Assembly (NCBI RefSeq): GCF_011397635.1
Contig: NC_064770.1
Coordinates: 23,058,200 to 23,122,199, forward strand
DNA: 64,000 nt
From: Epinephelus fuscoguttatus
Lineage: Eukaryota; Chordata; Actinopteri; Perciformes; Serranidae
Reading direction: 5' to 3'
Shown here: piece after piece, positions 4,114-60,394 of the stretch
Position numbering within the stretch: the first letter of the stretch is position 1
Layout: each line of letters begins with the position of its first letter
Notes under the pieces: model-generated
What the model was told of the DNA's origin: nothing
Databases searched by the model: none
The model's input: only the letters and a program-made list of their open reading frames with translations
Position numbers and translations under genes: made by a program

Positions 4114-7100
4114 TCACTGGCGACTGACAGCACACAGCTCATGAGGTAAAGGGTTAAGGATGAAGCTAACAGCTGGTGTCAGATCCAGTTCATCCTCTGT
4201 GACTCCAGGTGGAGGAGTGAAGCGAAAGCGCTGAAGGAGGGAGGTGAAGAAGAGGAACAGCTCCGTTCTGGCCAGACTCTCTCCCAGACACACCCTGCGA
4301 CCTGTGAGAGCAAAGAGTTGCAGCGAGTTAAACTGGATCATGTCTTTAGGATTGTGATATATCTATGCACAGTTGTTGTACCTGCAGAAAAGGGCATGAA
4401 GGCGTCTCTCCTGATAAATTCACCCTCCTTATCCAGGAAGTGGGAAGGGTTGAAAGTGTGTGGGGTCTCCCATTCGCTTTCATCATACAGGACAGAAGTA
4501 AGAAAAGGAAACACAGTAGTTCCCTGCAGCCAAAAGCAGAGACCAAGGTGTATTGTTTAAAATCTTGGAACCACAGAATTGTTTTCAGAGAAGAAAATAT
4601 CTAACAAAAGCAAATGTGCAGTGCAACTGACCTCTTTGATAAAGTAGCCCTGGAAGGTGACGTCTCGGCTGGTTTTGTGAGGAATAGCCAACGGGCCAAT
4701 GTTAGCAAATCTTTGTGACTCATGAATGACAGCATCAGTGTACGGCAGGTTCTTCCTGTCCTCTACTCCAACCTGACGGCTTCCAACCACCCTGTCCAGC
4801 TCCTCCTGGACCCGGTCTGGACTCACATAAAATTGAGATGAATTTGAAAAGTTAACCCAATTTTATGCAAACAATGTTAACTGAATTTCACCAGGGACGA
4901 GCACCTTGAAAATGTGGGTACTTCGCCATAAAGAGGAGGCACCACTGAAGTGTATATGCTGTAGTGTCAGTCCCAGCTGTGAGCAGATTCATCACACTGT
5001 AGTGAAGGTTGTCGTCATGATAGTACGAATCCTTGATTTCAGACTCCTGTAACACAGAAAAGAGGGACTGAGTTACTGAGTTACTAATATCAGCCAGTGG
5101 ATTCACTGGAGTCGGACACCTCACCTCCAGATTCATCATACGGGTCAGGAATGCATCAACAAAGCATCTGCACATCTCAGGGTTCAGAGTCTCCTTCAGC
5201 TCTGCTATCAAGCGTCTTACGTCATTCCTGTAGTCCTCCCCATTCCTCATCAAAGCCCTCCAGTTTTTAAGACAAGGCCCGAGCCAAGGAAACAGGTTGT
5301 ATATCTGTAATGGAGCACAATACAAACTATCTATGTAGGATTTAATAACAGATGTTACAGTCCAGCTGGTTTCATTCAGTCCATGTTTTAGACTCAGTTG
5401 TTTATCATTTAATGTGACATAAATGCTTGGGGATGCTTTATTTTCCGCGATCATAAATTCCAAATTTTAATGTAACAGAATTTTCCACAACACATCACTG
5501 GTACGAACTGTAAGTATAGGTATAACTTAATGTAATAAACTGGAGGTAGTTTGTGCCCTTCTAAATAAATTATTTTGACTGATCATAGCCCGGGCTTTTA
5601 AATTACTGATCTCAACAGACTGTTGCTCAGCTAAGATGGGAAATACAATCAAATATAAACCAGTATGAATATTACTTGTATGAAAATTAGGCTTCAAATT
5701 ACATTAAATATGAATCATTAATTTGATCTTTAATTTGATCTAACTCTGACAGACAGCGCATCAGATAGACAGAGTTATGACGAGTTATGATTTTTTTTTT
5801 GGACGCAAACACCGCTCTCCCGGGTGAAAGTCAGTATTTGTTGGACCCATCCACCACCACCTTTACTGCCTACCCTATTCGGACTTTCGCCGCCTTAACT
5901 TTCCTTTTGTCCCACCGCGTTTCCCCCTGATGCCGCTGAATACTATAACAGCTAGGACGCCTTTATTTGTCATTGTCTGACGCCACAGGTCACTGCCTAA
6001 AGACCAGGTTGACCCTTACGGACTAAAGGAATATGAACAACTTAGTGGATAAGGGAGGAATGGACACATATTTGGACATAATAAATTTTGGTCTTCTTTG
6101 GTGTGCTTGGTTATATTTGTATGTGTGATCATAGCAGCTAACCAACATTTGCTCAAGTGGGTAGCCAACAAGAACTTCTATAAAAATGAACTGCTTGGCA
6201 AACAGACCAGGCTTCTAATTGAGATGGGCCTTTATTTGTCAAAATGTGTAGCAACACCGGGCTATTAAAAGGGACTAGGTGTTTAATCAAATTAAGAAGC
6301 TGCAAAATTAAGTTTTGCCAAATATTTCATGGACTACAACAGCAATATTATTAATCGCTTACTTCTTAGGTCAAACAAGTCGGTAACATCAACAGCTCTG
6401 TCAAATGTCCTTGTAATCATCCAAAATCACTCAATCTGAAATCACTCTGTCATACCTGGATGGATGCTGATCCAGTCAGACGGACAGACTCGTGTTCTCT
6501 GTCAAAGATAATGTGCAAGACAGGATCTCTATAGTCAAACCTCTTTCCAAACATGATGGCTGTGATAATGTTTGCAGCTGCATAATTAACTGCCTGGGTG
6601 TTGTTGAAGGCTTTACCTGGGAGAAGAAGAGTAAGACTATAAGACAAGTGTAACTTATTCTAGGGAGTGCTGTAAAAACCTGTGCAGTGTTTTAGAGGAC
6701 ATAATGTTACCTTCATGTTGTTCAAATTCTTCAACCAGGTAGCGACATTCCTCAATGATTTTCCCTTCACTAATCCTTTTGCCCATCCCAAAATCTCTCA
6801 GTGTGGTTAGAGCAAAACGCCTCATTTCTTTCCACGAGTCACCATTGGAAAATAGTATGCCTGGAGAATAAAAGCAGGTGGGCTTGTTTGGACAAGGACA
6901 ATAGCAAGTTATTAATAAAACACTCTCAAAATACATTCTCACCATGTCCTTTGTTGAAATCATAGAATATAGGAGTGATCTCTCGGTCTCCAAACTCCTC
7001 AGCGTGGTTGACCAGAGCCTCTTTGACAGTCCTGTATCCTGCCAGGACCACCACCTTCTTCCATCCAAAGTAGACTGTGAACACTGGTCCATATTTTTTG

Positions 7101-8923
7101 GATAGCTAAAAAGATGGACTTATACTGAGGACAGTCAAAAACTTAAAACTTAATGATTTATCTATGTAACACTTTATAACAATGTTATGAAGCCCTTCAC
7201 AACAAGATAAAATACCAAAAAAATAAATAAATAATATGATTAATTTATTCATTCAGTGTCCATAACCACCTATCCTGGTACAGAGTAGCGAGGGGGCTGG
7301 AGCCTATTACAGCTGACATCGGGCAAGAGGTGGAGTACACCCTGGTCGCCAAGGTCAAAGGTTAAAAGAGATCAAATTTTTTTTAATCAACTAAGCTGGA
7401 AAAAGCATGACTGAACAATGTTCTTTAGTTGGTTGTCACGACAAACAAAAGTTGGCTTTATGTTATGTGATAGGGCTCCAAGATTGTAGACGGACAGAAC
7501 TGGGTGTAGCAAAGCAACACATTCTCACTCCGACCTCATCACATATCAACGTTTGGTCATGGACTTTCCTCGTCCACATACAACGTGCAAAGTACCCTGG
7601 CTGCGTTGGTTGTTGACGTTCTGGCCTGTTGCATGCATTGTCTTCTTTCAAAATACACTTCAGTTTTCACAGGAAATTTAACGTTTTCATACAGTCTCTT
7701 TCAAAATAAACGCACTACATCGGTACAGCACCGCAAATTGACATTTGTTTCCTTCAACAACAAACACACATGGTTGGGTTTAGGAAATAAGAGCATCGTT
7801 TGGCTGTAGAATCTTACGGGATGCAAACACCATTCTTTTGGGTGAAGGTCAGTGTTTGTTGAACCCATCCACCACCCCTCCCGACCGCTCCAATCAGGCT
7901 TTCGCTGGATTAACTTTCGTCCTAGTCCCGCTGTGTTCCCCCCTGATGCTGCCAAGCCCAGTTAAATTATAGCAACCAGCCACATATCATGCTGACGTCA
8001 AAGGATGTCCTTTTTCATTGGTTTCTGACGCCGCAAGTCACTGTCCAGGCGTCGGATTTCGATGACTAAGGAGTGAAACCAAGCTCAGCAAACAATATCG
8101 TTTTTGTTCTGTCATTGTTAGGCTTGACAAAGTTTTATTTATATATATATATATATATTTTTTTTTTTGGCATTTTTTTTTGGCATTTTTTAGCCTTTAA
8201 TGGACAAGACAGACACGCGTGAAAGGGGGAGAGAGAGAGGGAGCGACACGCAGCAAAGGGCCACAGGCCGGAATCAAACCCGGGCTGCCACGGCAACAGC
8301 CCCGCACATGGGGCACCCGCTCCACCACCAAGCCACCAACACCCCCGCCTTGACAAAGTTTTGAGAAGTCCAGCAATGGATATCAAAGGCAGATGGTAAA
8401 TTGGGTTAGGCTGCTGTGATTAGTAGATTGTAACTGGGCATTTGCATCATCAGCATAACAATGGTACTGCACATTATGTTGACCAATGATTTGACCCAAG
8501 TAAAGCATATAGATGGAGAACAGTAAAAGACCCGAAACTGACCCTTAAAGACGCCATGAATGAAATGGAAAACAACAGTTGGGAGATATCCAACAACAGC
8601 AAAGATTCTGTTAGACAAATAGGAGCATAATAAGTTGAGAGCAGACCTTTTTAGACCAAATCAAGTTCAATGAGCTTCTTGTCTTCTATCAAAGCAATGG
8701 AAAGAACCACATTGTTTTGTCTCACATCAACAAGAGAGCTGTCGAGTCGCTTGAGATCCAACTGAAGCAAGTTACCAAGCAGCGGTAGAGGTTTAGGTCC
8801 TGGAGGCTCTCTCTTATTGTCTCGGGAGTTGAAGCTGGAGTAGAAATGGTGGAGGACCAGCAGGCCCATGATGGCCACCAACAGGGAGACTGAGGTGGAG
8901 GACTGGAAGAGATCTTCTAACAT
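4114..8923 (-). CDS. cyp2k: Cytochrome P450 family 2 subfamily K-like, copy A (intact, 9 exons)
   Basis: Predicted ER-membrane haem monooxygenase; fish CYP2K enzymes oxidise fatty acids and foreign compounds. Exons in reading order: 8726-8923, 6943-7105, 6711-6860, 6456-6616, 5125-5304, 4905-5046, 4632-4816, 4382-4523, 4114-4301. They sum to 1509 nt, giving 502 residues with no stop, the usual CYP2 length and exon pattern. Exon 1 ([10 protein letters not shown] start) gives the membrane anchor and the Pro-rich hinge [12 protein letters not shown]. The I-helix AGTDTT is at residues 308-313, ESQR of the K-helix at 364-367, and the haem loop [10 protein letters not shown] has its Cys at 445. The C-terminus is HELCAVSRQ. 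Exon 1 uses the weak donor GAT|GTGAGA. The ATG lies 9 bases from a hAT insertion that separates it from its promoter. The subfamily call rests on close resemblance of exons 8-9 to trout CYP2K1. Confidence 0.9.
5790..6000. repeat. Interspersed repeat, copy 1 of 3 (intron 4 of copy A)
   Basis: The run 'gcaaacaccgctctcccggg', 'gtgaaagtcagtatttgttg', 'acccatccaccacc' and 'ctgatgccgctgaatac' recurs in related form at about 7815-8045 and, diverged, at about 14710-14815. A dispersed non-coding repeat is the simplest reading. I cannot name its family. Confidence 0.5.
7400..7620. repeat. Common fish interspersed repeat in intron 1 of copy A
   Basis: Contains ACACATTCTCACTCCGACCT and CATATCAACGTTTGGTCATG, phrases I associate with a widespread fish repeat. 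No coding capacity is evident. It directly precedes the second copy of the repeat at 7815-8045. Confidence 0.4.
7815..8045. repeat. Interspersed repeat, copy 2 of 3 (intron 1 of copy A)
   Basis: Related to the repeat at 5790-6000: same order of 'gcaaacaccattcttttggg', 'gtgaaggtcagtgtttgttg', 'acccatccaccacccctccc', and a 'tgacgccgcaagtcactg' tail. Confidence 0.5.
8160..8360 (-). repeat. tRNA-derived SINE in intron 1 of copy A
   Basis: The minus strand carries a B-box-like GGTTTGATTCC within a tRNA-like head (CCCGGGTTTGATTCCGGCC), followed by a tail with CGTGTCGCTCCC and T/A runs, as in widespread fish tRNA-SINEs. It is a retroposon, not a tRNA gene, since there is no convincing cloverleaf. 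The left boundary of the 9.3-kb duplication falls inside it at about 8239/8240. A truncated second copy of its head starts unit 2 at 17551. Confidence 0.65.
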
Positions 8924-8924
8924 G

Positions 8925-8932
8925 ATCGTACC
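8925..8932. other. 8-bp hAT target-site duplication (left), adjoining the copy A start codon
   Basis: ATCGTACC here is repeated exactly at 12022-12029 on the far side of the hAT element. The start codon of copy A occupies 8921-8923, so the insertion hit the 5'UTR immediately upstream of the ATG. Confidence 0.9.
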
Positions 8933-9137
8933 TAGGGGTGTGCCAATACATTGATTCTTAGATGCATTGCGATGCGACACGTGACAATCAATAACGATTA
9001 ACAAATGTTCAAAAATCGATTATTTTCCATGATGGTGAAATCACAGAAACACAACCAGGGTCAGGTCTGTTTTGTGAATGTTTGTGTGCATGACCGTGAC
9101 ACTTTATTCACGACGTGAATAAAGTGTCACGGTCAGT

Positions 9138-9191
9138 GAACCGGCTCTTTAGAGTGAACTAGCCAGTTCCTAATTTCTTTGGCCCTGTCCA
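9138..9191. repeat. Inverted templated insertion (54 nt)
   Basis: These 54 nt are an exact reverse complement of 10341-10394, about 1.2 kb away in the same hAT copy. The equivalent place in hAT copy 2 (after 18445) lacks the insertion and continues a perfect palindrome. Confidence 0.8.
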
Positions 9192-9365
9192 AACATTCAC
9201 AAAACAGTCCAGAACATGTCCCGTTTGTACCAGAATAACCAACAACCTCCCCCTATCCCAAAACACGCCCAAAATGCTTTCAATAACAAGTTTATAGTCT
9301 AAATTCAGACTTGTTCCAGCGTGTCCGAACTGCATGCTGGGTAACATGCAAACTAGACAAACAAA

Positions 9366-10351
9366 GGCCCTGTCCAAATACCCGCACTTGCGCCCTTGTG
9401 CCCCTTAATTGCGCGCTCCCGCTAAGGGGCGCAAGTGCGTAGGGTGTCCCAATTGTCTTCTGTTGTTATCAAGGGGTGCAAACCTGCGCCCTTAATGCAC
9501 CCCTTCCGAAAGTGCGCATCAGACCTCACTTTCCTGAAAGATTTTACCCAGAATCCTCCGTAGTGTCGTGACGCCGTAACACTACACAGCTGGCCGGTAC
9601 AACTCACCATCTTCAAATGGTAACTGGCGTATCCGCGAGCCGTTAACTCCGACTGACAACAACCGTTAGAGGAACATAACGTCTAACAACACGCTGTGTG
9701 GACTTAATAATTCATGACAGGGCGTTAATAATGAAATAATATACAGTTTACAGTTGACTGGAGGTTTGTATGACAGTCCACATCACTTTACAGTTTTGAT
9801 TGTGTCTTTAATTAATTAATTAATTTAATTATTATTTTATCACCGTATGTCTTTATAGTTTATTTTATATCACAATTTACCACAATTTATCCAAGCAAAA
9901 AACGTTTTAATAGTAATAACGATAATCTAGGCTACATTAATGGTAAAGTAAAAAAAGATGTTACAGCTAATATACACATTATTAACAGGTAAATTCAAGA
10001 GTAAAATTTAATTTAATTTACCTGTTGGTTGGGCATCAGCATCAATACTTGGATCTGATGTAGATGCCGCCTTCTCCTGCGGCTCCTAATCCTCCTCATC
10101 ATTCGCTGATTGTATCTATTTATCATTTGCAGTAGCGGTGCTGCAAACAACGTTATTTCCTCTAACGCCATGTTTCGTCTCCTAGGAGACGGACCAGCTG
10201 GACCCAAACGGAAGTGACGTGTACGCAACTGTCCCAATTCTCCTTTTTAAACAGCATCAATCCCTTGCGCACTTGCGCCCCTAACTGTACTTTTGGCAAG
10301 TGCACTTCAGGGAAGACCTCAGGGCGCAAGTGTGGGTATTTGGACAGGGCC
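9366..10351. mobile_element. Non-autonomous TIR element nested in hAT copy 1
   Basis: The left end GGCCCTGTCCAAATACCCGC is inverted at the right end (…TATTTGGACAGGGCC). The inverted termini extend about 30 bp through the ACTTGCGCCC motif. Flanks share AAA only, so the target duplication and superfamily are uncertain. A minus-strand frame at 10013-10168 begins MALEEITLFAAPLLQ and ends in an Arg-rich run. It could be the start of a Harbinger-type protein, but that is weak. Confidence 0.65.
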
Positions 10352-10606
10352 AAAGAAATTAGGAACTGGCTAGTTCACTCTAAAGAGCCGGTTCAAAGAC
10401 TCGGCTCGTTCGCGAACGCCCGGACAGATAACAGACTGTCATGTTAGCCAACATCAAAGATACTTATCCACCGTCTTTGGTAGCTATATTGTAGGTGGAC
10501 CATCTTGTAGTAATCCAGTATCTTTGGTACTGTCACTGAGCGCGAGGTTCACTCATCAGGGTTAAAATCCAGCGTGTGGCGGCATTTCGGTTTTTATGAA
10601 CATTAA

Positions 10607-10858
10607 GACAGAAAGAGCATTAACAAAAGCTACTCCGTGTGTACGGCGTGTAAAACAAGACTCAAGTACAGTGATAACACGACGAACATGAGACAGCACC
10701 TCAAGCGTTTCCACCCCGGGTTAGAGCCAGAGGAGGAGGAGGAGGAGGAGGAGGAGAAGAAGACGCCGGTTGTTGCTACAAACCAGCGAACAATTGAGGA
10801 AGGATTGAGAAAACTTCTCCGCGAATCTCAACATCCGTCGCTAACTTCAATACCTTAA
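10607..10858 (+). pseudogene. BED zinc-finger fragment of the hAT transposase (copy 1)
   Basis: The open frame reads VCTACKTRLKYSDNTTNMRQ then HLKRFHPG, giving the C-x2-C…H-x4-H pattern of a BED finger. A Glu-rich run (EEEEEEEEE) and a TAA follow. BED fingers form the N-terminal DNA-binding part of many hAT transposases. The catalytic and dimerisation domains are missing; a LINE insertion begins about 100 bp downstream. There is no ATG in the open stretch. Confidence 0.7.
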
Positions 10859-10954
10859 ATATTTCACCCGGAAAGCAGTTCTGAAGTACTGGAATCACTG
10901 AAGAAAGCATGCAGGGTAGCTGTTATTACTGAATAAAGTATCCTTTATGTTAGA

Positions 10955-11535
10955 TCAGTGCCCTCCCTCCCTACAAGACATATACATCACCTGCCTCACC
11001 CCGCACACAGTCTGTTCAGCCTCCTGCCCTCAGGGACAAAGTACCGGAGCCTCCGTCCTCGCTCCACCAGACTCACAGACAGCCTCATACACCAGGCTGT
11101 CAGGATGCTGAGCTCTCTCCCCACTCTCCCACTCCCTCCCCTCTGCTCCTCCCCCCAAAACACTCTGGACTCTGAACCCTGACCTTCAGATTGACTGTCC
11201 TTTTGCACTACTACAGTAAAATACATCTGCTGCTATTACTGTTTTCGCACTATTTAACATAGCCTATACAGAAACTTCTGCTTCACTACTATACATATTT
11301 AGATTTTAGTTTTTATAGATTTTATATTTTATTTTCATTGTTTCTTTTAGTATTAATAAATGTCTTTATCTGTTGTGCACTTTACTGTTTAGTGTTAGGA
11401 AATGTCTTTAACTGTTGTGCTTGTGCATTTTATCCTGTCACCGTGGGATAGAGAGAAACATCTTCTCGATTCCTCAGCATGTCGTCTGGTACATGTGGAG
11501 AAATTGACAGTAAAGCTAACTTTGACTTTGACTTT
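10955..11535 (+). mobile_element. 5'-truncated LINE 3' end nested in hAT copy 1
   Basis: The frame at 10958-11182 reads …LLPSGTKYRSLRPRSTRL and TDSLIHQAVRMLSSLP, like the C-terminal end of LINE ORF2 proteins of fish. A non-coding tail follows that ends in the short repeat TTTGACTTTGACTTTGA, as many such LINEs do. Boundaries are approximate. Confidence 0.6.
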
Positions 11536-12154
11536 GAATAAGCTGAACAAGCTAATAGTTTGGGGGTTTTTTGTATTACACCTACAGAACTCTGTGCAAA
11601 AAGCTGAGGATTTTAGTTAAAATAAGTTATTTGTAAAGGATTTTGTTTGGAAGTCTTTATTTATTATTTCTGAATAAGCAGAATAAGCTATTTGTTTTGT
11701 ATTAAACTTGCTAGTACAGAAATCTGTGAAAACAGCAGAGGATTTTGTTAAAAGAAGTCTTATTTCTAAAGGCACTTTATGTATTACACTTTATGTAATA
11801 AGAGCAGCTTTTTGTTGTGGGAAATGTGTTGGATCGTTTGGTCTTATATAAATAAAAGATAATGGAGGTAAATTTTGTTGTTTACTTCAATTAATGGATA
11901 CTGACAAAATACCTTGTTTAAAAGAAATCCTGTATGGGGAAAAAGATGCATCGATAATCGTGATAATCGTAATAATCGTTTAATAATCAAATCGTGAGGT
12001 GCCTAAGATGGCATACCCCTAATCGTACCTAGATCCAACTCCTTTTAGGAAACCATTTCATTTAACAGCTGAATGGGCTTCTACTTTCATCCGATTTGAT
12101 TGTTGCCTCAGCTAAGTCAATGGGAGGGGCGATCGACCAAGCGTCTGCACCGCC

Positions 12155-12161
12155 TTTTATA
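12155..12161 (-). promoter_or_regulatory. TATA box of the displaced CYP2K copy A promoter
   Basis: The minus strand reads TATAAAA in CTTTATAAAAGGCGG, with an ATTGG (inverted CCAAT) about 10 bases upstream. It lies about 134 bp beyond the right end of the hAT element. Before that insertion it would have been roughly 145 bp from the copy A ATG, a normal core-promoter distance. This is inferred from position and motif. Confidence 0.6.
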
Positions 12162-14699
12162 AAGGCCGCACCAATGACGCCATAAAACACACTCATCTCA
12201 CCTCAGTTAAACTGTCAGTGAAAAACGATTCGTGACATGGCCTTTGAGCCATTGAGGGATACAGTAAATGCTTAGAACTTGAAAACTTGTTTGACTGCTT
12301 TGTCCTCAGGAGACAAACCAAGTTGCACGTACATAAATACATGTGGGAAGTAGGACACAGTTCTGATACCACAAAGTGTGCATTTTGTGCTGTCATTTAG
12401 TAATATGGGATTGTACCTAAAGGATTAAACTGATAGTGTGCTTGCAAAGATTTGTTAATCAGCTTGTACCAAAGTTTAAAGGTAGGTAGGTAGGTCTCAC
12501 AGGTTTTAAGTTACAAATCCACCTTTCATGTGGAAAGCCTTCTTAAGATTTTTAAAACCTTCTCAAGAGCAGAAAAGAAATTAAATCTCCACTGGGTGTG
12601 TTTCCATCAACCAAGATATCTAAGAAACTGGTTAGTCAGCTTCTTTACATCTGCCCAACCCAATCTATATTCTACCCCCATGTGTTCTACAGGAAGTACT
12701 CACACTCATTTTACTTATGCAAACAGAATTGCCTTGTTTTCAGTTCTTGACTAAATAGACTGGGTCACCAACCTTACGATTGTTGGTATTAAAACACAGC
12801 TTATCCATACAACTTAGCATGATGAGAAATTAGGGTTACAGTCAACTGACCAAAATATCATTTAAAAGCAGTTAAAATGTATATTTCCCTTTAGTATATC
12901 CTTGGAAGTACCTCAACTTTTTGTCTTTTCCATCAGCAACCACTGAAAAAAAGGTGTGTCTAGGATTTGGTTTTTTTTGTTTGTTTTGTTTTTATTAAGT
13001 ATTTCTCTAGAAGAAAAAAAATCAGTTACCAAAAGAAAATACTGGTACATAAATGTAGCTGATTGTAATTTTAGACATACATGATGTATCGGCTACGTAT
13101 ACATTACAAAAAAAATTCTGCCCTTTGCTGCTCTATGCAAATTACAATCTACAAAGTACATGTCTTTGTGAGAATAATCAACAGTGGCTTAAGAGCAAGA
13201 ATAGTAAGGCTAACGTAGCTTTGTCATTAAGTACAAATTCATATTCCTACACACTGTGTAGCTGCCCCATGTGAGGCTGAGTAAAGGCAGTAATAGTGCC
13301 ATGCTCCAGCTCTCTTCCTCACTGGCGACTGACGGCACACAGCTCATGAGGTGAAGGGCCAAGGGTGAGACCCACAGCTGGTGTCAGATCCAGTTCATCC
13401 TCTGTGACTCCAGGTGCAGGAGTGAAGAAAGCGCTGAAGGAGGGAGGTGAAGAAGAGGAACAGCTCCATCTTAGCCAGACTTTCCCCAAGACACACCCTG
13501 CGACCTGCAGGAATGAAGAGATTTGCAGTATGTGTGGATCATGCTGTGAAAATATCTCTGTATACCCTGAACAACAAGAACTTGACAAAGTTGTACCTGC
13601 AGAAAAGGGCATGAAGGCGTCTCTCCTGGTAAATTTACCCTCTGCATCCAGGAAGTGAGAAGGGTTGAAAGTGTGTGGGGTCTCCCATTCGCTCTCATCA
13701 TACAGAACAGAAGTAAGAAGAGGAAACACAGTAGTCCCCTGCAGCCAAAAGAGGAGAGCAAGGTGTATCATATAAAGTCACTTTTTCAAGTTTTAGGAGA
13801 TGGATGAACATTCCATGAATTATTGTTCTTTGTGGAAAAGTGCTGAAACATCTGAGCGCCTCACCGCTCTGATAAAGTAGCCCTGGAAGGTGACGTCTCG
13901 GCTGGTTTTGTGAGGAAGGGACATGGGGACGATGTTGGCCAGTCTCTGTGTCTCATGGATGACAGCGTCGGTGTAGGGCAGATTTTTACGGTCATCCACC
14001 TGGACCACACAACTTCCAACCACCCTGTCCATCTCCTCCTGGACCTGGTCTGAAGACACAAAATAATTAACATGAGTGTACAGCCAAGCTAGCAGCTCTC
14101 TCATACCTCAGTGACAAAATAGGTCGATTTCCACTGACTTCCAAACTGACATAGCCCATTAGACCTTCCCTAAAATTACATTTATTACCATCCTGAGGGC
14201 TGTATAAATGATGTGGTATATATGGAGAAAAAGTTGTTCATTTTAGTGCAAGGCTGCCAGAGCTTTCCATCTGTTCCATGGACAATAGGCCTACACAAAC
14301 TGGGCAAGGAAGACTATGCACTTGGGATTTTAGGTAAATAGCCAATGATAAGGTGCTTGTTAAGGTTGCTTAGCAACCTCAGACGCAACCTGCTGCTGCA
14401 CTCTTGAAAGCTGGCACAAGCCATAAGACAAGAGTAGCACCCAATGCCTGACCTTGCGTTTTCTTGTGTAAGGACCCTAATGGTTGCAGTTCTAAACACC
14501 TTCTTTACGTCATGAAACAGTCGCAATTATGCTATAAAACTTGGTGGTTAGGTTTCGGCAAAAACATTGTGGTTTGGCTTTAGATAAGTACTTTCGTTAT
14601 TAATGTAACTGCATGTATTTCACATCAAAGACATCACATACTGTACATCAATAGTGTATCATGCTACACATACTAGTATACTAAGCTACATTGTAATTA

Positions 14700-14815
14700 A
14701 AAGAAGTCACTGTTGACTTCAGGCCACGAACACCAGTCTCCTGTGTGAAAGTCCTGTGCTTGTGTGACCCATGCATCACCCCTGCTGCCCACCCTACACT
14801 GTCTTCTTCCATCTT
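14700..14815. repeat. Interspersed repeat, copy 3 of 3 (B1 intron 6)
   Basis: A diverged relative of the repeats at 5790-6000 and 7815-8045, recognised by 'gaacaccagtctcctgtgtg' and 'gacccatgcatcacccctgc'. The same copy exists in unit 2 at about 23961-24076. Confidence 0.4.
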
Positions 14816-15699
14816 CATGCAATAGATTGCTTTTGGAATGAGTCCTAACACCCGGAAATGACAGCATTTCTGCACTCCCAGTTCCCTTGTCTCGAAGTAA
14901 ATGGGATTTTTGAAGAGATTTTTGATTAGATGCCTGAAATAAGGTCTGTGGTTAACACAAGCATAAAAGACATTCATGTTCTGCTCAATGAAAAAAAAAA
15001 CAACAAAACATCAGTACAAGTGAATTTTGAGGCTTTTATGTGTCTTAATAAAGGTGGTTGCTAACAAGTTGCTAAAGGAGACTACAGAACGTCATCACGC
15101 CAAACACGGCTTTACAGCCTCTTTGCGGTGGTGACATTGCAACTGTGGTGTAGTTTGTTTACAGCCTGAAGTTTTTCCTCTTTTGTTCTTCTGGTGATTA
15201 AAGTAAGGCTTCAGAATTCATAAAAGTGGTGTTCATTTGCAAAGATGAACAAAATGTTGAAGTATCATATACATTTGTTTGCCACTGAGTTTGGTTTCTG
15301 CAACAATCCAAAATCCAATGAAAAAATTCTACAAGTTTTTATGAGTGAAACCAGGGAGATGCTAACTTCAATGTCGCCCTACAGAAAAATGTCATCCCTG
15401 GGGCACTTCTTATGACACAGATTTTCTTTCTTTTTATACTAGGTCACCTCACATCCTCCTCTGCTCCTGTACTATATATTCTGGCCACTAGAGGGGGCTG
15501 CATTAATATAAACCTACGAATGGTTTACTATAAGATCACAAAGTCAACCTATGTGGCTGTTTTTTCAGTGAGACCAGCCTTAAAATTTGGTGGTGAACCA
15601 TTTGAGCAGACAGCCAGCATGGCTAAAAAAAAAGTACAGTTTAATTATTTATTTTTAATATTTAGATCAAGTCTATTTGATTTCTTCTTTTTTTTTTTG

Positions 15700-15862
15700 A
15701 AATTTTTGCATTTGACAGATGGCACTGTAGAAACTGAGACAGAGAGAGGGGATACGACGCAACAAATGTCCCAATGAACCCATGTTATTGGTTAAAGTGC
15801 ATTTCCAATAACTCATGTTACTGGAAATGCACTTTAACCACTCAGCTATCAAGATGCTCCAG
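15700..15862. repeat. SINE fragment with internal inverted repeat (unit 1)
   Basis: The text 'gacagagagaggggatacg', 'caacaaatgtcc' and 'ccactcagctatcaag' resembles the tRNA-SINE at 8160-8360. Inside it GGTTAAAGTGCATTTCC (15791-15807) is inverted at about 15823-15839, giving a hairpin. Unit 2 carries the same structure near 25056-25104. Confidence 0.5.
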
Positions 15863-18036
15863 TGTCTGTGTGATTATTACCCAGCTATACATTTCTGCTT
15901 TGTTTAAACTCAAACAAGCAATCTATACTGCAGTCTAGACAAACTGAGACTTATATATACTGGAACTAGTATGAAAACTGAGACATAACAAAAGAAATTG
16001 TGAAAATAAAGAAGTAAAAAGGACTCTAAGTGTTAAAAAAAGCCTGTACAGCTTCATATTTTCATAAGATCCACAAGCTTCATCTCCGTCCTCCTTACCT
16101 TGTATATGTGGATATTTAGCCATAAGCAGCAGAGCCCATCTCAGTGTCGTCGCTGTGGTATCAGTACCAGCAGCAAACAGGTTAGTCACTGTATGCAACA
16201 TGTTCTTCTCATGGTAGTGAGTGTTTGTAACAGAGGAGTCCTGGCAGACAGAACACCCACATATTAAAAAACAGACATGCAACTTTACTGGTCTTTATGT
16301 CAAATGAAAAACACAAAGGATGTCGTCTCACCTCTTCTTTCTGCTTCCGTATCAGAAAACAGTCCACAAGTCCCCTGCAGATGTGAGGGTTCAGTGTCTC
16401 TTTCAGACTCTTGAATATATCTTTGACATCTCTGTTGGTTGTCTCAATATTATTTAATATCAGGTGCCGGCCTTTTACCCAACTGACCAGCCTGGGAAAC
16501 ATGTTGTAAAGCTGCAACGAAAAAACCTCCTGAACAAGAAGTTTCAACTAGTTGCAATCTGCAATCCTCACCACTAGATACCACTAAATCCCCCCAAAAC
16601 CTTAGACACTGCTCCTTGAATTTTGTCATAAATCATACATAGATCAAATGTGTCAGCTACTATTAATTGTGTGTAATCCTCTTAAAACAGCAGCAATTTA
16701 AAATGCAAATATGAAGCCCACCTGGATTTCTGCAGAGCCCACAACACGAATGTTCTCGTTGGCTCGCGTCACCATGTTTGTGAATCGGGGATCATCATAT
16801 TCAAACCTGCTTCCATACACGATATTGCAAATGATATTGGATGTTGCGTAATTGACCGGACATGTTGTATTAAATGGTTTCCCTGTAAACAGGCAGTGAG
16901 AAATAAAATCATTACAACGCACACACACTGAGAGGTGTCCTGATATGTGGGTCAAATGCCACTCAGCATTACATTATCTTTTTGTATATCAGAACGTCCT
17001 GTCATGTGTTGTCACGTACACACCACATACCTTTATGCTTTTCGAACATTTGGATCAGATGGTGGCATTCCTCCAAGATTTTATGTTCAGCCATTCGTTT
17101 GCCCATCCCAAAGTCTCTCAGGGTGGTGAGGGCAAAGCGTCTCATCTCTTTCCATGATTCTCCGTTTGCAAACAGAATTCCTGTTAATAAACGTGACATT
17201 CAAGTTAAATTTAACCTGTATCTGTTTTGCTTTTGCTGTAACTGTGCATTTATATTTTTTGGTTTTGTGCTGATATGCAAACAAACTGTATATCAAAAGA
17301 TTTAGTAAAGGTAGGTCTTACCGTGACCAAAACTTGTATCATAAAAAATCGGGGGGATTTCTCTGTCTCCAAACTCTTCTGCGTAGTTGACCAGAGCTTC
17401 TTTGACTGTCTTGTAACCTGCCAGGACCACCACTTTTTTGGGTCCAAGGTACACTGTAAACACCGACCCATGTTTCTTTGACAGCTAGAAAAATGTAAAC
17501 AGTAGTCAAATGTGTCAGAGACAGTATACGGACATTCAAATGAATCCTTGGGAGCGACACGCAGCGAAGGGCCACAGGCCGGAATCAAACCCGGGCTGCC
17601 ACGGCAACAGCCCCGCACATGGGGCACCCGCTCCACCACCAAGCCACCAACACCCCCGCCTTGACAAAGTTTTGAGAAGTCCAGCAATGGATATCAAAGG
17701 CAGATGGTAAATTGGGTTAGGCTGCTGTGATTAGTAGATTGTAACTGGGCATTTGCATCATCAGCATAACAATGGTACTGCACATTATGTTGACCAATGA
17801 TTTGACCCAAGTAAAGCATATAGATGGAGAACAGTAAAAGACCCGAAACTGACCCTTAAAGACGCCATGAATGAAATGGAAAACAACAGTTGGGAGATAT
17901 CCAACAACAGCAAAGATTCTGTTAGACAAATAGGAGCATAATAAGTTGAGAGCAGACCTTTTTAGACCAAATCAAGTTCAATGAGCTTCTTGTCTTCTAT
18001 CAAAGCAATGGAAAGAACCACATTGTTTTGTCTCAC

Positions 18037-18234
18037 ATCAACAAGAGAGCTGTCGAGTCGCTTGAGATCCAACTGAAGCAAGTTACCAAGCAGCGGTAGA
18101 GGTTTAGGTCCTGGAGGCTCTCTCTTATTGTCTCGGGAGTTGAAGCTGGAGTAGAAATGGTGGAGGACCAGCAGGCCCATGATGGCCACCAACAGGGAGA
18201 CTGAGGTGGAGGACTGGAAGAGATCTTCTAACAT
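18037..18234 (-). CDS. Duplicated CYP2K exon 1 (A-type) now upstream of copy B1
   Basis: Identical in frame to 8726-8923: the 66-codon exon beginning [10 protein letters not shown] and ending …LDSSLVD before a GTGAGA donor. It supplies the membrane anchor and the [12 protein letters not shown] hinge. The next acceptor downstream in the transcript is copy B1 exon 2 at 17484. It cannot serve B2, because it lies downstream of B2's exon 9. Confidence 0.8.
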
Positions 18235-18380
18235 GATCGTACCTAGGGGTGTGCCAATACATTGATTCTTAGATGCATTGCGATGCGACACGTGACAATC
18301 AATAACGATTAACAAATGTTCAAAAATCGATTATTTTCCATGATGGTGAAATCACAGAAACACAACCAGGGTCAGGTCTG

Positions 18381-18467
18381 TTTTGTGAATGTTTGTGTGC
18401 ATGACCGTGACACTTTATTCACGACGTGAATAAAGTGTCACGGTCATGCACACAAACATTCACAAAA
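18381..18467. repeat. Perfect palindrome, 42-bp arms with 3-nt spacer
   Basis: The left arm 18381-18422 (starts TTTTGTGAATGTTTGTGTGC) is the exact reverse complement of 18426-18467, separated by GAC. In hAT copy 1 the right arm is interrupted by the 54-nt insertion at 9138-9191. Confidence 0.9.
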
Positions 18468-18628
18468 CAGTCCAGAACATGTCCCGTTTGTACCAGAATA
18501 ACCAACAACCTCCCCCTATCCCAAAACACGCCCAAAATGCTTTCAATAACAAGTTTATAGTCTAAATTCAGACTTGTTCCAGCGTGTCCGAACTGCATGC
18601 TGGGTAACATGCAAACTAGACAAACAAA

Positions 18629-19591
18629 GGCCCTGTCCAAATACCCGCACTTGCGCCCTTGTGCCCCTTAATTGCGCGCTCCCGCTAAGGGGCGCAAGTG
18701 CGTAGGGTGTCCCAATTGTCTTCTGTTGTTATCAAGGGGTGCAAACCTGCGCCCTTAATGCACCCCTTCCGAAAGTGCGCATCAGACCTCACTTTGCTGA
18801 AAGATTTTACCCAGAATCCTCCGTAGTGTCGTGACGCCGTAACACTACACAGCTGGCCGGTACAACTCACCATCTTCAAACGGTAACTGGCGTATCCGCG
18901 AGCCGTTAACTCCGACTGACAACAACCGTTAGAGGAACATAACGTCTAACAACACGCTGTGTGGACTTAATAATTCATGACAGGGCGTTAATAATGAAAT
19001 AATATACAGTTTACAGTTGACTGGAGGTTTGTATGACAGTCCACATCACTTTACAGTTTTGATTGTGTCTTTAATTATGATTATTTTATCACTGTATGTC
19101 TTTATAGTTTATTTTATATCACAATTTACCACAATTTATCCAAGCAAAAAACGTTTTAATAGTAATAACGGTAATCTAGGCTACGTTAATGGTAGAGTAA
19201 AAAAAGATGTTACAGCTAATATACACATTATTAACAGGTAAATTCAAGAGTAAAATTTAATTTAATTTACCTGTTGGTTGGGCATCAGCATCAATACTTG
19301 GATCTGATGTAGATGCCGCCTTCTCCTGCGGCTCCTAATCCTCCTCATCATTCACTGATTGTATCTATTTATCATTTGCAGTAGCAACAATGTTATTTCC
19401 TCTAACGCCATGTTTCGTCTCCTAGGAGACGGACCAGCTGGACCCAAACGGAAGTGACGTGTACGCAACTGTCCCAATTCTCCTTTTTAAACAGCATCAA
19501 TCCCTTGCGCACTTGCGCCCTTAACTGTACTTTTGGCAAGTGCACTTCAGGGAAGACCTCAGGGCACAAGTGTGGGTATTTGGACAGGGCC
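18629..19591. mobile_element. Non-autonomous TIR element nested in hAT copy 2
   Basis: Same element as 9366-10351 (GGCCCTGTCCAAATACCCGC at the left, inverted at the right), with small indels relative to copy 1. Confidence 0.65.
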
Positions 19592-19845
19592 AAAGAAATT
19601 AGGAACTGGCTAGTTCACTTCAAAGAGCCGGTTCAAAGACTCGGCTCGTTCGCAACGCCCGGACAGATAACAGACTGTCATGTTAGCCAACATCAAAGAT
19701 ACTTATCCACCGTCTTTGGTAGCTATATTGTAGGTGGACCATCTTGTAGTAATCCAGTATCTTTGGTACTGTCACTGAGCGCGAGGTTCACTCATCAGGG
19801 TTAAAATCCAGCGTGTGGCGGCATTTCGGTTTTTATGAACATTAA

Positions 19846-20091
19846 GACAGAAAGAGCATTAACAAAAGCTACTCCGTGTGTACGGCGTGTAAAACAAGAA
19901 TCAAGTACAGTGATAACACGACGAACATGAGACAGCACCTCAAGCGTTTCCACGCCGGGTTAGAGCCAGAGGAGGAGGAGGAGGAGGAGAAGAAGACGCC
20001 GGTTGTTGCTACAAACCAGCGAACAATTGAGGAAGGATTGAGAAAACTTCTCCGCGAATCTCAACATCCGTCGCTAACTTCAATACCTTAA
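19846..20091 (+). pseudogene. BED zinc-finger fragment of the hAT transposase (copy 2)
   Basis: Same C-x2-C…H-x4-H frame as 10607-10858, with a Glu run two residues shorter and R-to-I and P-to-A changes. The TAA position is the same. No downstream catalytic domain. Confidence 0.7.
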
Positions 20092-20179
20092 ATATTTCAC
20101 CCGGAAAGCAGTTCTGAAGTACTGGAATCACTGAAGAAAGCATGCAGGGTAGCTGTTATTACTGAATAAAGTATCCTTT

Positions 20180-20770
20180 ATGTTAGATCAGTGCCCCACT
20201 CCCCTCCCTACAAGACATATACATCACCTGCCTCACCCCGCACACAGTCTGTTCAGCCTCCTGCCCTCAGGGACAAGGTACCGGAGCCTCCGTCCTCGCT
20301 CCACCAGACTCACAGACAGCCTCATACACCAGGCTGTCAGGATGCTGAGCTCTCTCCCCACTCTCCCACTCCCTCCCCTCTGCTCCTCCCCCCAAAACAC
20401 TCTGGACTCTGAACCCTGACCTTCAGATTGACTGTCCTTTTGCACTACCACAGTAAAATACATCTGCTGCTATTACTGTTTTCGCACTATTTAACATAGC
20501 CTATACAGAAACTTCTGCTTCACTACTATACATATTTAGATTTTAGTTTTTATAGATTTTATATTTTATTTTCATTGTTTCTTTTAGTATTAATAAATGT
20601 CTTTATCTGTTGTGCACTTTACTGTTTAGTGTTAGGAAATGTCTTTAACTGTTGTGCTTGTGCATTTTATCCTGTCACCGTGGGATAGAGAGAAACATCT
20701 TCTCGATTCCTCTGCATGTCTGGTACATGTGGAGAAATTGACAGTAAAGCTAACTTTGACTTTGACTTTG
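20180..20770 (+). mobile_element. LINE 3' end nested in hAT copy 2
   Basis: Copy of 10955-11535. The frame through LLPSGTRYRSLRPRSTRL and the TTTGACTTTGAC tail are retained. Boundaries approximate. Confidence 0.6.
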
Positions 20771-21388
20771 AATAAGCTGAACAAGCTAATAGTTTGGGGG
20801 TTTTTTGTATTACACCTACAGAACTCTGTGCAAAAAGCTGAGGATTTTAGTTAAAATAAGTTATTTGTAAAGGATTTTGTTTGGAAGTCTTTATTTATTA
20901 TTTCTGAATAAGCAGAATAAGCTATTTGTTTTGTATTAAACTTGCTAGTACAGAAATCTGTGAAAACAGCAGAGGATTTTGTTAAAAGAAGTCTTATTTC
21001 TAAAGGCACTTTATGTATTACACTTTATGTAATAAGAGCAGCTTTTTGTTGTGGGAAATGTGTTGGATCGTTTGGTCTTATATAAATAAAAGATAATGGA
21101 GGTAAATTTTGTTGTTTACTTCAATTAATGGATACTGACAAAATACCTTGTTTAAAAGAAATCCTGTATGGGGAAAAAGATGCATTGATAATCGTGATAA
21201 TCGTAATAATCGTTTAATAATCAAATCGTGAGGTGCCTAAGATGGCATACCCCTAATCGTACCTAGATCCAACTCCTTTTAGGAAACCATTTCACTTAAC
21301 AGCTGAATGGGCTTCTACTTTCATCCGATTTGATTGTTGCCTCAGCTAAGTCAATGGGAGGGGCGATCGACCAAGCGTCTGCACCGCC

Positions 21389-21395
21389 TTTTATA
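21389..21395 (-). promoter_or_regulatory. TATA box upstream of the chimeric copy B1 (beyond hAT copy 2)
   Basis: Duplicate of 12155-12161 (minus-strand TATAAAA). It lies 134 bp past the hAT right end and about 3.15 kb from the exon 1 ATG at 18234. Confidence 0.55.
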
Positions 21396-22576
21396 AAGGT
21401 CGCACCAATGACGCCATAAAACACACTCATCTCACCTCAGTTAAACTGTCAGTGAAAAACGATTCGTGACACGGCCTTTGAGCCATTGAGGGATACAGTA
21501 AATGCTTAGAACTTGAAAACTTGTTTGACTGCTTTGTCCTCAGGAGACAAACCAAGTTGCACGTACATAAATACATGTGGGAAGTAGGACACAGTTCTGA
21601 TACCACAAAGTGTGCATTTTGTGCTGTCATTTAGTAATATGGGATTGTACCTAAAGGATTAAACTGATAGTGTGCTTGCAAAGATTTGTTAATCAGCTTG
21701 TACCAAAGTTTAAAGGTAGTTTGTTTGGAGAATATTTCATTCTGATCTCAGTCTCACAGGTTTTAAGTTACAAATCCACCTTTCATGTGGAAAGCCTTCT
21801 TAAGATTTTTAAAACCTTCTCAAGAGCAGAAAAGAAATTAAATCTCCACTGGGTGTGTTTCCATCAACCAAGATATCTAAGAAACTGGTTAGTCAGCTTC
21901 TTTACATCTGCCCAACCCAATCTATATTCTACCCCATGTGTTCTACAGGAAGTACTCACACTCATTTTACTTATGCAAACAGAATTGCCTTGTTTTCAGT
22001 TCTTGACTAAATAGACTGGGTCACCAACCTTACGATTGTTGGTATTAAAACACAGCTTATCCATACAACTTAGCATGATGAGAAATTAGGGTTACAGTCA
22101 ACTGACCAAAATATCATTTAAAAGCAGTTAAAATGTATATTTCCCTTTAGTATATCCTTGGAAGTACCTCAACTTTTTGTCTTTTCCATCAGCAACCACT
22201 GAAAAAAAGGTGTGTCTAGGATTTGGTTTTTTTTTTGTTTGTTTTGTTTTTATTAAGTATTTCTCTAGAAGAAAAAAAATCAGTTACCAAAAGAAAATAC
22301 TGGTACATAAATGTAGCTGATTGTAATTTTAGACGTACATGATGTATCGGTTACGTATACATTACAAAAAAAATTCTGCCCTTTGCTGCTCTATGCAAAT
22401 TACAATCTACAAAGTACATGTCTTTGTGAGAATAATCAACAGTGGCTTAAGAGCAAGAATAGTAAGGCTAACGTAGCTTTGTCATTAAGTACAAATTCAT
22501 ATTCCTACACACTGTGTAGCTGCCCCATGTGAGGCTGAGTAAAGGCAGTAATAGTGCCATGCTCCAGCTCTCTTCC

Positions 22577-25500
22577 TCACTGGCGACTGACGGCACACAG
22601 CTCATGAGGTGAAGGGCCAAGGGTGAGACCCACAGCTGGTGTCAGATCCAGTTCATCCTCTGTGACTCCAGGTGCAGGAGTGAAACGAAAGCGCTGAAGG
22701 AGGGAGGTGAAGAAGAGGAACAGCTCCATCTTAGCCAGACTTTCCCCAAGACACACCCTGCGACCTGCAGGAATGAAGAGATTTGCAGTATGTGTGGATC
22801 ATGCTGTGAAAATATCTCTGTATACCCTGAACAACAAGAACTTGACAAAGTTGTACCTGCAGAAAAGGGCATGAAGGCGTCTCTCCTGGTAAATTTACCC
22901 TCTGCATCCAGGAAGTGAGAAGGGTTGAAAGTGTGTGGGGTCTCCCATTCGCTCTCATCATACAGAACAGAAGTAAGAAGAGGAAACACAGTAGTCCCCT
23001 GCAGCCAAAAGAGGAGAGCAAGGTGTATCATATAAAGTCACTTTTTCAAGTTTTAGGAGATGGATGAACATTCCATGAATTATTGTTCTTTGTGGAAAAG
23101 TGCTGAAACATCTGAGCGCCTCACCGCTCTGATAAAGTAGCCCTGGAAGGTGACGTCTCGGCTGGTTTTGTGAGGAAGGGACATGGGGACGATGTTGGCC
23201 AGTCTCTGTGTCTCATGGATGACAGCGTCGGTGTAGGGCAGATTTTTACGGTCATCCACCTGGACCACACGACTTCCAACCACCCTGTCCATCTCCTCCT
23301 GGACCTGGTCTGAAGACACAAAATAATTAACATGAGTGTACAGCCAAGCTAGCAGCTCTCTCATACCTCAGTGACAAAATAGGTCGATTTCCACTGACTT
23401 CCAAACTGACATAGCCCATTAGACCTTCCCTAAAATTACATTTATTACCATCCTGAGGGGCTGTATAAATGATGTGGTATATATGGAGAAAAAGTTGTTC
23501 ATTTTAGTGCAAGGCTGCCAGAGCTTTCCATCTGTTCCATGGACAATAGGCCTACACAAACTGGGCAAGGAAGACTATGCACTTGGGATTTTAGGTAAAT
23601 AGCCAATGATAAGGTGCTTGTTAAGGTTGCTTAGCAACCTCAGACGCAACCTGCTGCTGCACTCTTGAAAGCTGGCACAAGCCATAAGACAAGAGTAGCA
23701 CCCAATGCCTGACCTTGCGTTTTCTTGTGTAAGGCCCCTAATGGTTGCAGTTCTAAACACCTTCTTTACGTCATGAAACAGTCGCAATTATGCTATAAAA
23801 CTTGGTGGTTAGGTTTCGGCAAAAACATTGTGGTTTGGCTTTAGATAAGTACTTTCGTTATTAATGTAACTGCATGTATTTCACATCAAAGACATCACAT
23901 ACTGTACATCAATAGTGTATCATGCTACACATACTAGTATACTAAGCTACATTGTAATTAAAAGAAGTCACTGTTGACTTCAGGCCACGAACACCAGTCT
24001 CCTGTGTGAAAGTCCTGTGCTTGTGTGACCCATGCATCACCCCTGCTGCCCACCCTACACTGTCTTCTTCCATCTTCATGCAATAGATTGCTTTTGGAAT
24101 GAGTCCTAACACCCGGAAATGACAGCATTTCTGCACTCCCAGTTCCCTTGTCTCGAAGTAAATGGGATTTTTGAAGAGATTTTTGATTAGATGCCTGAAA
24201 TAAGGTCTGTGGTTAACACAAGCATAAAAGACATTCATGTTCTGCTCAATGAAAAAAAAAAAAAAAAAACATCAGTACAAGTGAATTTTGAGGCTTTTAT
24301 GTGTCTTAATAAAGGTGGTTGCTAACAAGTTGCTAAAGGAGACTACAGAACGTCATCACGCCAAACACGGCTTTACAGCCTCTTTGCGGTGGTGACATTG
24401 CAACTGTGGTGTAGTTTGTTTACAGCCTGAAGTTTTTTCCTCTTTTGTTCTTCTGGTGATTAAAGTAAGGCTTCAGAATTCATAAAAGTGGTGTTCATTT
24501 GCAAAGATGAACAAAATGTTGAAGTATCATATACATTTGTTTGCCACTGAGTTTGGTTTCTGCAACAATCCAAAATCCAATGAAAAAATTCTACAAGTTT
24601 TTATGAGTGAAACCAGGGAGATGCTAACTTCAATGTCGCCCTACAGAAAAATGTCATCCCTGGGGCACTTCTTATGACACAGATTTTCTTTCTTTTTATA
24701 CTAGGTCACCTCACATCCTCCTCTGCTCCTGTACTATATATTCTGGCCACTAGAGGGGGCTGCATTAATATAAACCTACGAATGGTTTACTATAAGATCA
24801 CAAAGTCAACCTATGTGGCTGTTTTTTCAGTGAGACCAGCCTTAAAATTTGGTGGTGAACCATTTGAGCAGACAGCCAGCATGGCTAAAAAAAAAGTACA
24901 GTTTAATTATTTATTTTTAATATTTAGATCAAGTCTATTTGATTTCTTCTTTTTTTTTTTTTGAAATTTTTGCCTTTGACAGATGGCAATGTAGAAACTG
25001 AGACAGAGAGAGGGGATACGGCACGCAACAAATGTCCCAATGAACCCATGTTATTGGTTAAAGTGCATTTCCAATAACTCATGTTACTGGAAATGCACTT
25101 TAACCACTCAGCTATCAAGATGCTCCAGTGTCTGTGTGATTATTACCCAGCTATACATTTCTGCTTTGTTTAAACTCAAACAAGCAATCTATACTGCAGT
25201 CTAGACAAACTGAGACTTATATATACTGGAACTAGTATGAAAACTGAGACATAACAAAAGAAATTGTGAAAATAAAGAAGTAAAAAGGAGTTAAAAGGTG
25301 TTAAAAAAAGCCTGTACAGCTTCATATTTTCATAAGATCCACAAGCTTCATCTCCGTCCTCCTTACCTTGTATATGTGGATATTTAGCCATAAGCAGCAG
25401 AGCCCATCTCAGTGTCGTCGCTGTGGTATCAGTACCAGCAGCAAACAGGTTAGTCACTGTATGCAACATGTTCTTCTCATGGTAGTGAGTGTTTGTAACA

Positions 25501-27089
25501 GAGGAGTCCTGGCAGACAGAACACCCACATATTAAAAAACAGACATGCAACTTTACTGGTCTTTATGTCAAATGAAAAACACAAAGGATGTCGTCTCACC
25601 TCTTCTTTCTGCTTCCGATCAGAAAACAGTCCACAAGTCCCCTGCAGATGTGAGGGTTCAGTGTCTCTTTCAGACTCTTGAATATATCTTTGACATCTCT
25701 GTTGGTTTTCTCAATATTATTTAATATCAGGTGCCGGCCTTTTACCCAACTGACCAGCCTGGGAAACATGTTGTAAAGCTGCAACGAAAAAACCTCCTGA
25801 ACAAGAAGTTTCAACTAGTTGCAATCTGCAATCCTCACCACTAGATACCACTATCCCCCAAAACCTTAGACACTGCTCCTTGAATTTTGTCATAAATCAT
25901 ACATAGATCAAATGTGTCAGCTACTATTAATTGTGTGTAATCCTCTTAAAACAGCAGCAATTTAAAATGCAAATATGAAGCCCACCTGGATTTCTGCAGA
26001 GCCCACAACACGAATGTTCTCGTTGGCTCGCGTCACCATGTTTGTGAATTGGGGATCATCATATTCAAACCTGCTTCCATACACAATATTGCAAATGATA
26101 TTGGATGTTGCGTAATTGACCGGACATGTTGTATTAAATGGTTTCCCTGTAAACAGGCAGTGAGAAATAAAATCATTACAACGCACACACACTGAGAGGT
26201 GTCCTGATATGTGGGTCAAATGCCACTCAGCATTACAATGACACTTTGCATACATTATCTTTTTGTATATCAGAACGTCCTGTCATGTGTTGTCACGTAC
26301 ACACCACATACCTTTATGCTTTTCGAACATTTGGATCAGATGGTGGCATTCCTCCAAGATTTTATGTTCAGCCATTCGTTTGCCCATCCCAAAGTCTCTC
26401 AGGGTGGTGAGGGCAAAGCGTCTCATCTCTTTCCATGATTCTCCGTTTGCAAACAGAATTCCTGTTAATAAACGTGACATTCAAGTTAAATTTAACCTGT
26501 ATCTGTTTTGCTTTTGCTGTAACTGTGCATTTATATTTTTTGGTTTTGTGCTGATATGCAAACAAACTGTATATCAAAAGATTTAGTAAAGGTAGGTCTT
26601 ACCGTGACCAAAACTTGTATCATAAAAAATCGGGGGGATTTCTCTGTCTCCAAACTCTTCTGCGTAGTTGACCAGAGCTTCTTTGACTGTCTTGTAACCT
26701 GCCAGGACCACCACTTTTTTGGGTCCAAGGTACATTGTAAACACCGACCCATGTTTCTTTGACAGCTAGAAAAATGTAAACAGTAGTCAAATGTGTCAGA
26801 GACAGTATACGGACATTCAAATGAATCCTTGCAGCTGTTACAAAATGTGCTTATTTTAGCATAGGAGTGCTTAACTTACCTGAAAGAGGGTTTTGTAGGG
26901 TCTGCTGAGATCAAGCTGCAACAGGTTGCCAAGCAGGGGAAGAGGCCTTGGCCCCGGAGGCCCCTTCCGCGTCTCCTGGGAGGTGACACTGCTGGAAACA
27001 AGATAGAGGACGAGCAGGAGAACAACAACCCCCAACCAGGTGGTGGGATTGGAGAAAAGGAAGTAAATAAAGTCCCCTAAAACAGACAT
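22577..27089 (-). pseudogene. cyp2k: CYP2K copy B2: native exon 1, frameshift in exon 5
   Basis: Exons in reading order: 26880-27089, 26603-26765, 26312-26461, 25986-26146, 25600-25778, 25367-25508, 23125-23309, 22857-22998, 22577-22764. Exon 1 begins MSVLGDFIYFLF and gives a hydrophobic anchor, the PPGPRPLPLLGN hinge and the donor CAG|GTAAGT. Intron 1 is only 114 bp. Exon 9 is full length, ending HELCAVSRQ. Exon 5 is 179 nt, one less than in A, B1 and C: CCGATCAG replaces CCGTATCAG at about 25615-25622. This turns LIRKQKEE into LIGSRKK and gives a stop in exon 6 after about 305 residues, before the I-helix and haem loop. Read literally, it is inactive. A sequencing error is possible, although the site is not a homopolymer. 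Confidence 0.8.
24970..25115. repeat. SINE fragment with internal inverted repeat (unit 2)
   Basis: Counterpart of 15700-15862, in B2 intron 6, with the same GGTTAAAGTGCATTTCC inverted pair. Confidence 0.5.
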
Positions 27090-27734: not shown

Positions 27735-28108
27735 GTGAAACCCATAGACATATATACATAGACGCCGCATTGACTGCCGCCGCCTATCAGAGCCGACGTC
27801 CTTGCTGGCCGCCATCTTGGATGGGTCTCTCTTCGCCTCCACAGTGCATTCACTTCTATTGAGGAAGGAGCTGTATGCACAAGTAAAATAGAATAACTCA
27901 CTGAATTTTCAACTGATTTTCACGCGGTTTGGTTTGTTACAAACGGCACACATGTAGTTATGATACAGGATGCTTTCGTACATTAAAAATGCGGGATTTC
28001 ATGCTTTAATACTTTCTGCAGATAGCAACAGCATGTTATTTAGGTCACAACACAGTGCTTTTATTCACCTCAACCTCAGAGTGGGATATATATATATATA
28101 TATATATA

Positions 28109-29737: not shown

Positions 29738-29774
<37 letters not shown>
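29738..29774. repeat. (TA)n microsatellite at the Tc1 right flank
   Basis: An uninterrupted TA run immediately after the Tc1 terminus. A matching run, 28086-28108, precedes the left terminus, so Tc1 landed in a TA tract. Confidence 0.8.

Positions 29775-29778
<4 letters not shown>

Positions 29779-50002: not shown

Positions 50003-50049
<47 letters not shown>

Positions 50050-60343: not shown

Positions 60344-60394
<51 letters not shown>

Follow-up and report, generated by a model that had tools for sequence, protein, structure and literature searches.

Candidate chimeric cytochrome P450 gene at the joint of a 9.3-kb tandem repeat in Epinephelus fuscoguttatus

Introduction

Chimeric genes formed by tandem duplication are well described in Drosophila yakuba (Rogers et al. 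2017, PMC5460883), and in an insect, Helicoverpa armigera, a functional chimeric cytochrome P450 (P450), CYP337B3, is on record (PMC6211633). For fish, the passages drawn on here from a report on Kryptolebias marmoratus give a CYP2K38 pseudogene, a nine-exon copy 98% similar to a fish CYP2K gene (PMC5751882). The present analysis concerns a 64-kb stretch of the Epinephelus fuscoguttatus genome (C19:23058200-23122199; hereafter the window; genome 1.047 Gb in 26 contigs), in which a cluster of P450 genes contains a direct tandem repeat. At the joint of this repeat stands the gene called B1, which in the assembly has a 5' part from gene A and a 3' part from gene B, in frame across a derived joint. 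A chimeric CYP2K gene appears unreported in titles and abstract openings from a limited search, by which absence is unproven.

All P450 genes modelled in the cluster lie on the minus strand, in the transcription order C, B2, B1, A within the window, followed by D, E and F in the adjoining 30 kb on its left. The subfamily label CYP2K is presumed for them, following an earlier sequence-only reading of this DNA. The explanation preferred, held with a little more confidence than doubt, is that a chimeric P450 gene, now decaying, arose through one recent, end-joined tandem duplication.

Results

Self-comparison of the window gave one 9.3-kb direct tandem repeat (8239-17550 vs 17550-26831; 97.99% over 9,368 columns). 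Global alignment of the two copies (Table 1) gave 50 substitutions and 20 insertion/deletion entries, one of the latter being the boundary base only. Six of the 50 substitutions fall at 9130-9200, a rearranged spot with unreliable alignment; the remaining 44 correspond to a divergence of 0.476%. Uneven divergence, considered as a sign of gene conversion between the units, gave a chi-square p of 0.052 over five stretches.

The intron newly formed at the joint has 552 bp and consists of 66 bp of B intron beside exon 2 and 486 bp of A intron beside exon 1. A 240-bp query across the joint had a single full-length match in the genome among the 41 matches listed; its left half also matched B2 and C, its right half also matched A and, among the matches listed, at least 37 further places of an interspersed repeat (all match counts for this query are lower bounds). 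The one shared base looks like the product of end joining or template switching. Recombination between repeats was rejected as the cause of the duplication, only 1 bp being common at the joint.

The direction of copying was read from two features. The interspersed repeat that runs through the left breakpoint was compared with 8 fetched loci (of the 37 listed places; one locus carries two copies), and all 9 of the 9 alignments crossed 8239 unbroken (identity 81-87%; starts from 8130 to 8161); the intron of A thus represents the intact state, and it is at the joint that the repeat is cut. Gene C carries the B-type intron that B2 continues past 26831. The unbroken repeat in A and the B-type intron in C together indicate that the copied unit ran from intron 1 of A to intron 1 of B, and they support the view that the unduplicated order can be recovered from this same genome. 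The sequence-only reading had proposed such a 9.3-kb unit, and the self-comparison, the joint sequence and the repeat across 8239 bear it out; its positions for the second A-type exon 1, for B1 exon 2 and for the joint, its 552-bp distance between the two exons, its exon phases and its unit length were all found correct.

Both exon-1 types (A, 198 bp; B, 210 bp) end in phase 0, the phase in which B exon 2 starts; the gene models thereby agree with the earlier proposal that an A-type anchor and a B-type body would stay in frame. The two exon-1 peptides agree in 32 of 70 aligned columns. Scored with small, local splice matrices (16 distinct donors, 20 distinct acceptors), the new intron had a donor of 6.75 and an acceptor of 10.57 (leave-one-out), the other real sites ranging from 1.94 to 11.5 and from -3.34 to 14.68, respectively. 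The first 466 of the 476 residues of B1 follow A (exon 1) and then B, unbroken. With this anatomy, in-frame splicing of the A-type exon 1 to B exons 2-9 would be possible.

The frame of B1 does not remain open to the C-terminus of the P450 family: it stops at codon 477, past the heme motif, and 10 new residues replace the last 36. The frame of B2 stops at codon 306, in exon 6. Over exons 2-9, B1 and B2 differ by 4 nonsynonymous and 1 synonymous substitutions (ratio of nonsynonymous to synonymous rates, dN/dS, 1.18); for B1 vs C about 21.5 of each were counted (dN/dS 0.28). The contrast fits relaxed constraint without being significant, and the few differences between B1 and B2 bear no sign of purifying selection.

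In each unit a transposon sits 9 bp upstream of the A-type ATG. Its ends start TAGGGGT, and target-site copies ATCGTACC flank it on both sides in both units; an 8-bp target site duplication and terminal inverted repeats of hAT type are present. Related ends were found at four other places (contigs C5, C23, C9 and C12). Of the right-end matches, one ends at 12021, the last base predicted for the element, and two extend 2-3 bases further; within the DNA examined, C9 only showed both ends (flanking 8-mers 7/8 alike), the other three places one end each. BED zinc fingers are linked with hAT elements, and a fragment of such a finger (PF02892, E 1.2e-7) is the one sign of a possible transposase; no stop-free stretch exceeds 93 codons. 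Within the element, 9137-9201 of copy 1 is an inverted copy of 10331-10395, and copy 2 (18402-18476) apparently has a long inverted repeat there, judged by eye; the difference resembles a local template-switch-like change.

Paralogue D is without the transposon, and its TATA-like and leader blocks align with those of A once the element is omitted (191 of 376 columns identical over the aligned stretch, upstream part included). The element separates the putative promoter from the ATG, and 48 (A) and 47 (B1) upstream ATGs intervene, counted from assumed starts near 12130 (A) and 21365 (B1). Since the element is present in both units, its insertion is, on the simplest reading, older than the duplication, and B1 would most simply have received the A promoter with the insertion already inside. 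The expectation of the sequence-only reading that B1 gains a new membrane anchor and the promoter region of A is not supported as regards a usable gene: in both units the inferred promoter is cut from the ATG by a 3.0-3.1-kb transposon. Neither this split of the A-type leader nor the two frameshifts (exon 9 of B1, exon 5 of B2) had been mentioned there.

Exact splicing-out of the transposon at its target-site copies was considered and rejected. The acceptor at the element end scored -1.25, below 19 of the 20 real acceptors (leave-one-out), and ranked 56 of 210 AG sites in A and 51 of 204 in B1; the candidate donor CTAG|GTACGA in A ranked 10 of 209 GT leader sites. With matrices this small the test is a weak one, and such splicing is a remote prospect.

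As to the remaining genes, A, C, D and F have open frames over nine exons (502, 506, 502 and 504 codons, respectively), and within the cluster D is the paralogue nearest to A. With A, B1 and C as the only Pfam queries, PF00067 (p450) was matched at profile positions 1-461 of 462 by A and C and 1-435 by B1; with protein C as the only query against PDB, all 38 of the 38 distinct sequences at E <= 1e-100 were named CYP2. Nine exons are the usual layout of CYP2 genes, and the layout of the modelled genes is consistent with membership; by sequence, the cluster genes are P450s of family 2.

Gene C against B1/B2 (32839-36525, 40247-40985) shows 94-97% at exons 1-2 and 7-9 with their introns and 82-85% around exons 3-6, a patchy similarity that suggests gene conversion between B and C. 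Gene E (C19:23039140-23042136; L010:941-3937) is a further broken gene of the cluster: a partial P450 with exons 4-9 and an internal stop in exon 4; exons 1-3 gave no match (tblastn, E 1e-3), and the AG before exon 6 is also missing.

About 650 bp upstream of the B2 ATG lies an element with inverted ends of about 360 bp (27740-31019; 93%); a 293-bp inverted pair inside it (28086-28378 / 29468-29760, 99.7%) is presumably Tc1-like. Beside the P450 cluster, exons resembling an ABC transporter of subfamily A were recognized by eye at 44700-63100 on the minus strand.

Table 1: Features of the window (positions are those of the window).
Feature	Position	Strand	Remarks
Gene A	4114..8923	-	9 exons, open, 502 codons
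Gene C	32894..40794	-	9 exons, open, 506 codons; within the cluster, the paralogue closest to B
A-type exon 1 (copy) upstream of B1	18037..18234	-	198 bp, 66 codons, phase 0; identical to 8726-8923
B1 exon 2	17322..17484	-	163 bp, AG/GT ends
B1 exons 3-6	17180-17031, 16882-16722, 16511-16332, 16240-16099	-	Gene model; exons 3-9 together span 13395..17180
B1 exons 7-9	14049-13865, 13738-13597, 13504-13395	-	Gene model; premature stop in exon 9
B2 exons 1-2	26603..27089	-	Gene model; own B-type exon 1 27089-26880, exon 2 26765-26603
B1-specific 2-bp deletion, exon 9	13426..13427	-	Stop 13397-13395; B2, C and A have both bases
B2-specific 1-bp deletion, exon 5	25617..25618	-	Stop 25456-25454 in exon 6; B1 and C have the base
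Tandem unit, copy 1	8239..17550		Self-comparison and end-to-end alignment with copy 2
Tandem unit, copy 2	17551..26831		Self-comparison and end-to-end alignment with copy 1
Joint	17550..17551		Left B-type intron 1, right A-type intron 1; 1-bp overlap, G
Interspersed repeat in A intron 1	8158..8345		Continuous across the left breakpoint; interrupted by the joint in copy 2
hAT-type transposon in A 5' leader	8933..12021		3,089 bp; 8-bp target-site copies 8925-8932, 12022-12029
Counterpart of this transposon in copy 2, in the leader of B1 (A-type exon 1)	18244..21255		3,012 bp
Inferred TATA box, A-type promoter	12150..12165	-	Motif only; aligns with the TATA-like block of D

Discussion

On the explanation preferred, one recent tandem duplication would have copied a stretch reaching from intron 1 of A into intron 1 of B, the adjacent gene; the event is read from the assembly and presumed for the DNA of the animal. 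It would have proceeded by end joining or template switching at 1 bp of homology, not by recombination between repeats, leaving the exon structure of B2 whole and giving B1 a copy of A exon 1 that its anatomy makes joinable, by predicted splicing, to B exons 2-9. The chimeric gene would be already dead or dying by reason of its own frameshift before the C-terminal segment, an inferred promoter separated from the ATG by a 3-kb hAT-type element and the want of any sign of purifying selection. B1 is thus probably no working enzyme, and function would rest with gene C and probably also with A. The idea of exon shuffling by one tandem duplication, put forward from the letters of the window, holds for the anatomy and is not supported for a usable gene, since the frame of B1 breaks in exon 9.

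Several findings weigh against this account. Five substitutions underlie the contrast in nonsynonymous and synonymous changes, which does not reach significance (Fisher p 0.35-0.36, rounded counts). With repeat copies so nearly identical, both frameshifts could stem from consensus errors. The heme-binding motif of B1 is intact and lies upstream of the break, and a 10-residue tail in place of 36 residues is no proof of a dead enzyme. The frame of A is open despite the same transposon in its leader; the element may therefore be tolerated and need not silence a gene.

The alternative that survives best, itself rather unlikely, is a false duplication, in which two haplotypes or overlapping contig ends of a single 9.3-kb stretch were set in tandem, the joint and the chimera being nonexistent. 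Heterozygosity in an outbred fish could reach 0.48%, so the divergence of the copies lies within the possible range. Contigs often stop in interspersed repeats; overlapping contig ends would yield exactly this structure, and one end does lie inside such a repeat. According to the passages of Ko et al. 2022 (PMC9516828) used here, errors of this kind are widespread in older assemblies, 'false chimeric gains' being a minority of the resulting annotation errors, and gaps between the copies and half depth are marks of false duplication. The 64-kb window and the 30 kb to its left contain zero N, which weighs weakly against a simple contig overlap. An artefact would also require two different B frameshift alleles in one animal, or two consensus errors.

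Improbable is a working chimera, that is, a real, expressed P450 with the A anchor, the exon-9 frameshift being a consensus error or tolerated. The in-frame exons, their AG/GT ends, the intact heme motif and the 466 of 476 residues that follow A and then B agree with it, and in the part of the Drosophila yakuba study consulted chimeric genes from tandem duplication often alter expression (PMC5460883); the private frameshift, the split leader and the absence of a selection signal speak against it. Slighter again is the chance that B1 is a very young expressed chimera in which the anchor exon alone was swapped, the transposon leader being spliced as a new intron or giving a new start site. Unequal crossing-over or gene conversion between A and its paralogue B, in the manner of other P450 hybrids, is very improbable as the source of B1: the paralogues are clustered and the B-C similarity is patchy, but the intron ends have just 1 bp in common at the joint and the copied unit includes a whole intergenic stretch.

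If the joint is real, the locus would offer a clean, young case in which a single tandem duplication shuffled an exon within a detoxification gene cluster of a vertebrate, and the order before the event can still be read from that genome; B1 would then show that a frameshift together with an inherited transposon can stop even a structurally complete chimera. Should the joint be an assembly error, the locus would usefully illustrate a false chimeric gene.

Among the described systems, in so far as the consulted parts of the reports present them, the chimeras of Drosophila yakuba (PMC5460883) are alike in that tandem duplication joins parts of different genes, with regulation possibly changed. 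Particular to B1, as its sequence is read here, is that both breakpoints lie in the first introns of paralogues, so that the anchor exon alone was exchanged; B1 also differs from those chimeras in being frameshifted and known from genome sequence. The Kryptolebias CYP2K38 pseudogene (PMC5751882) is likewise a near-identical nine-exon CYP2K-type copy called a pseudogene; unlike B1, it is located some 1 kb away on the opposite strand, and an exon-1 swap is not described in the consulted part of that report. With CYP337B3 (PMC6211633) B1 shares the character of a chimeric P450 built from two paralogues, and it differs from it in a non-homologous joint and a broken frame.
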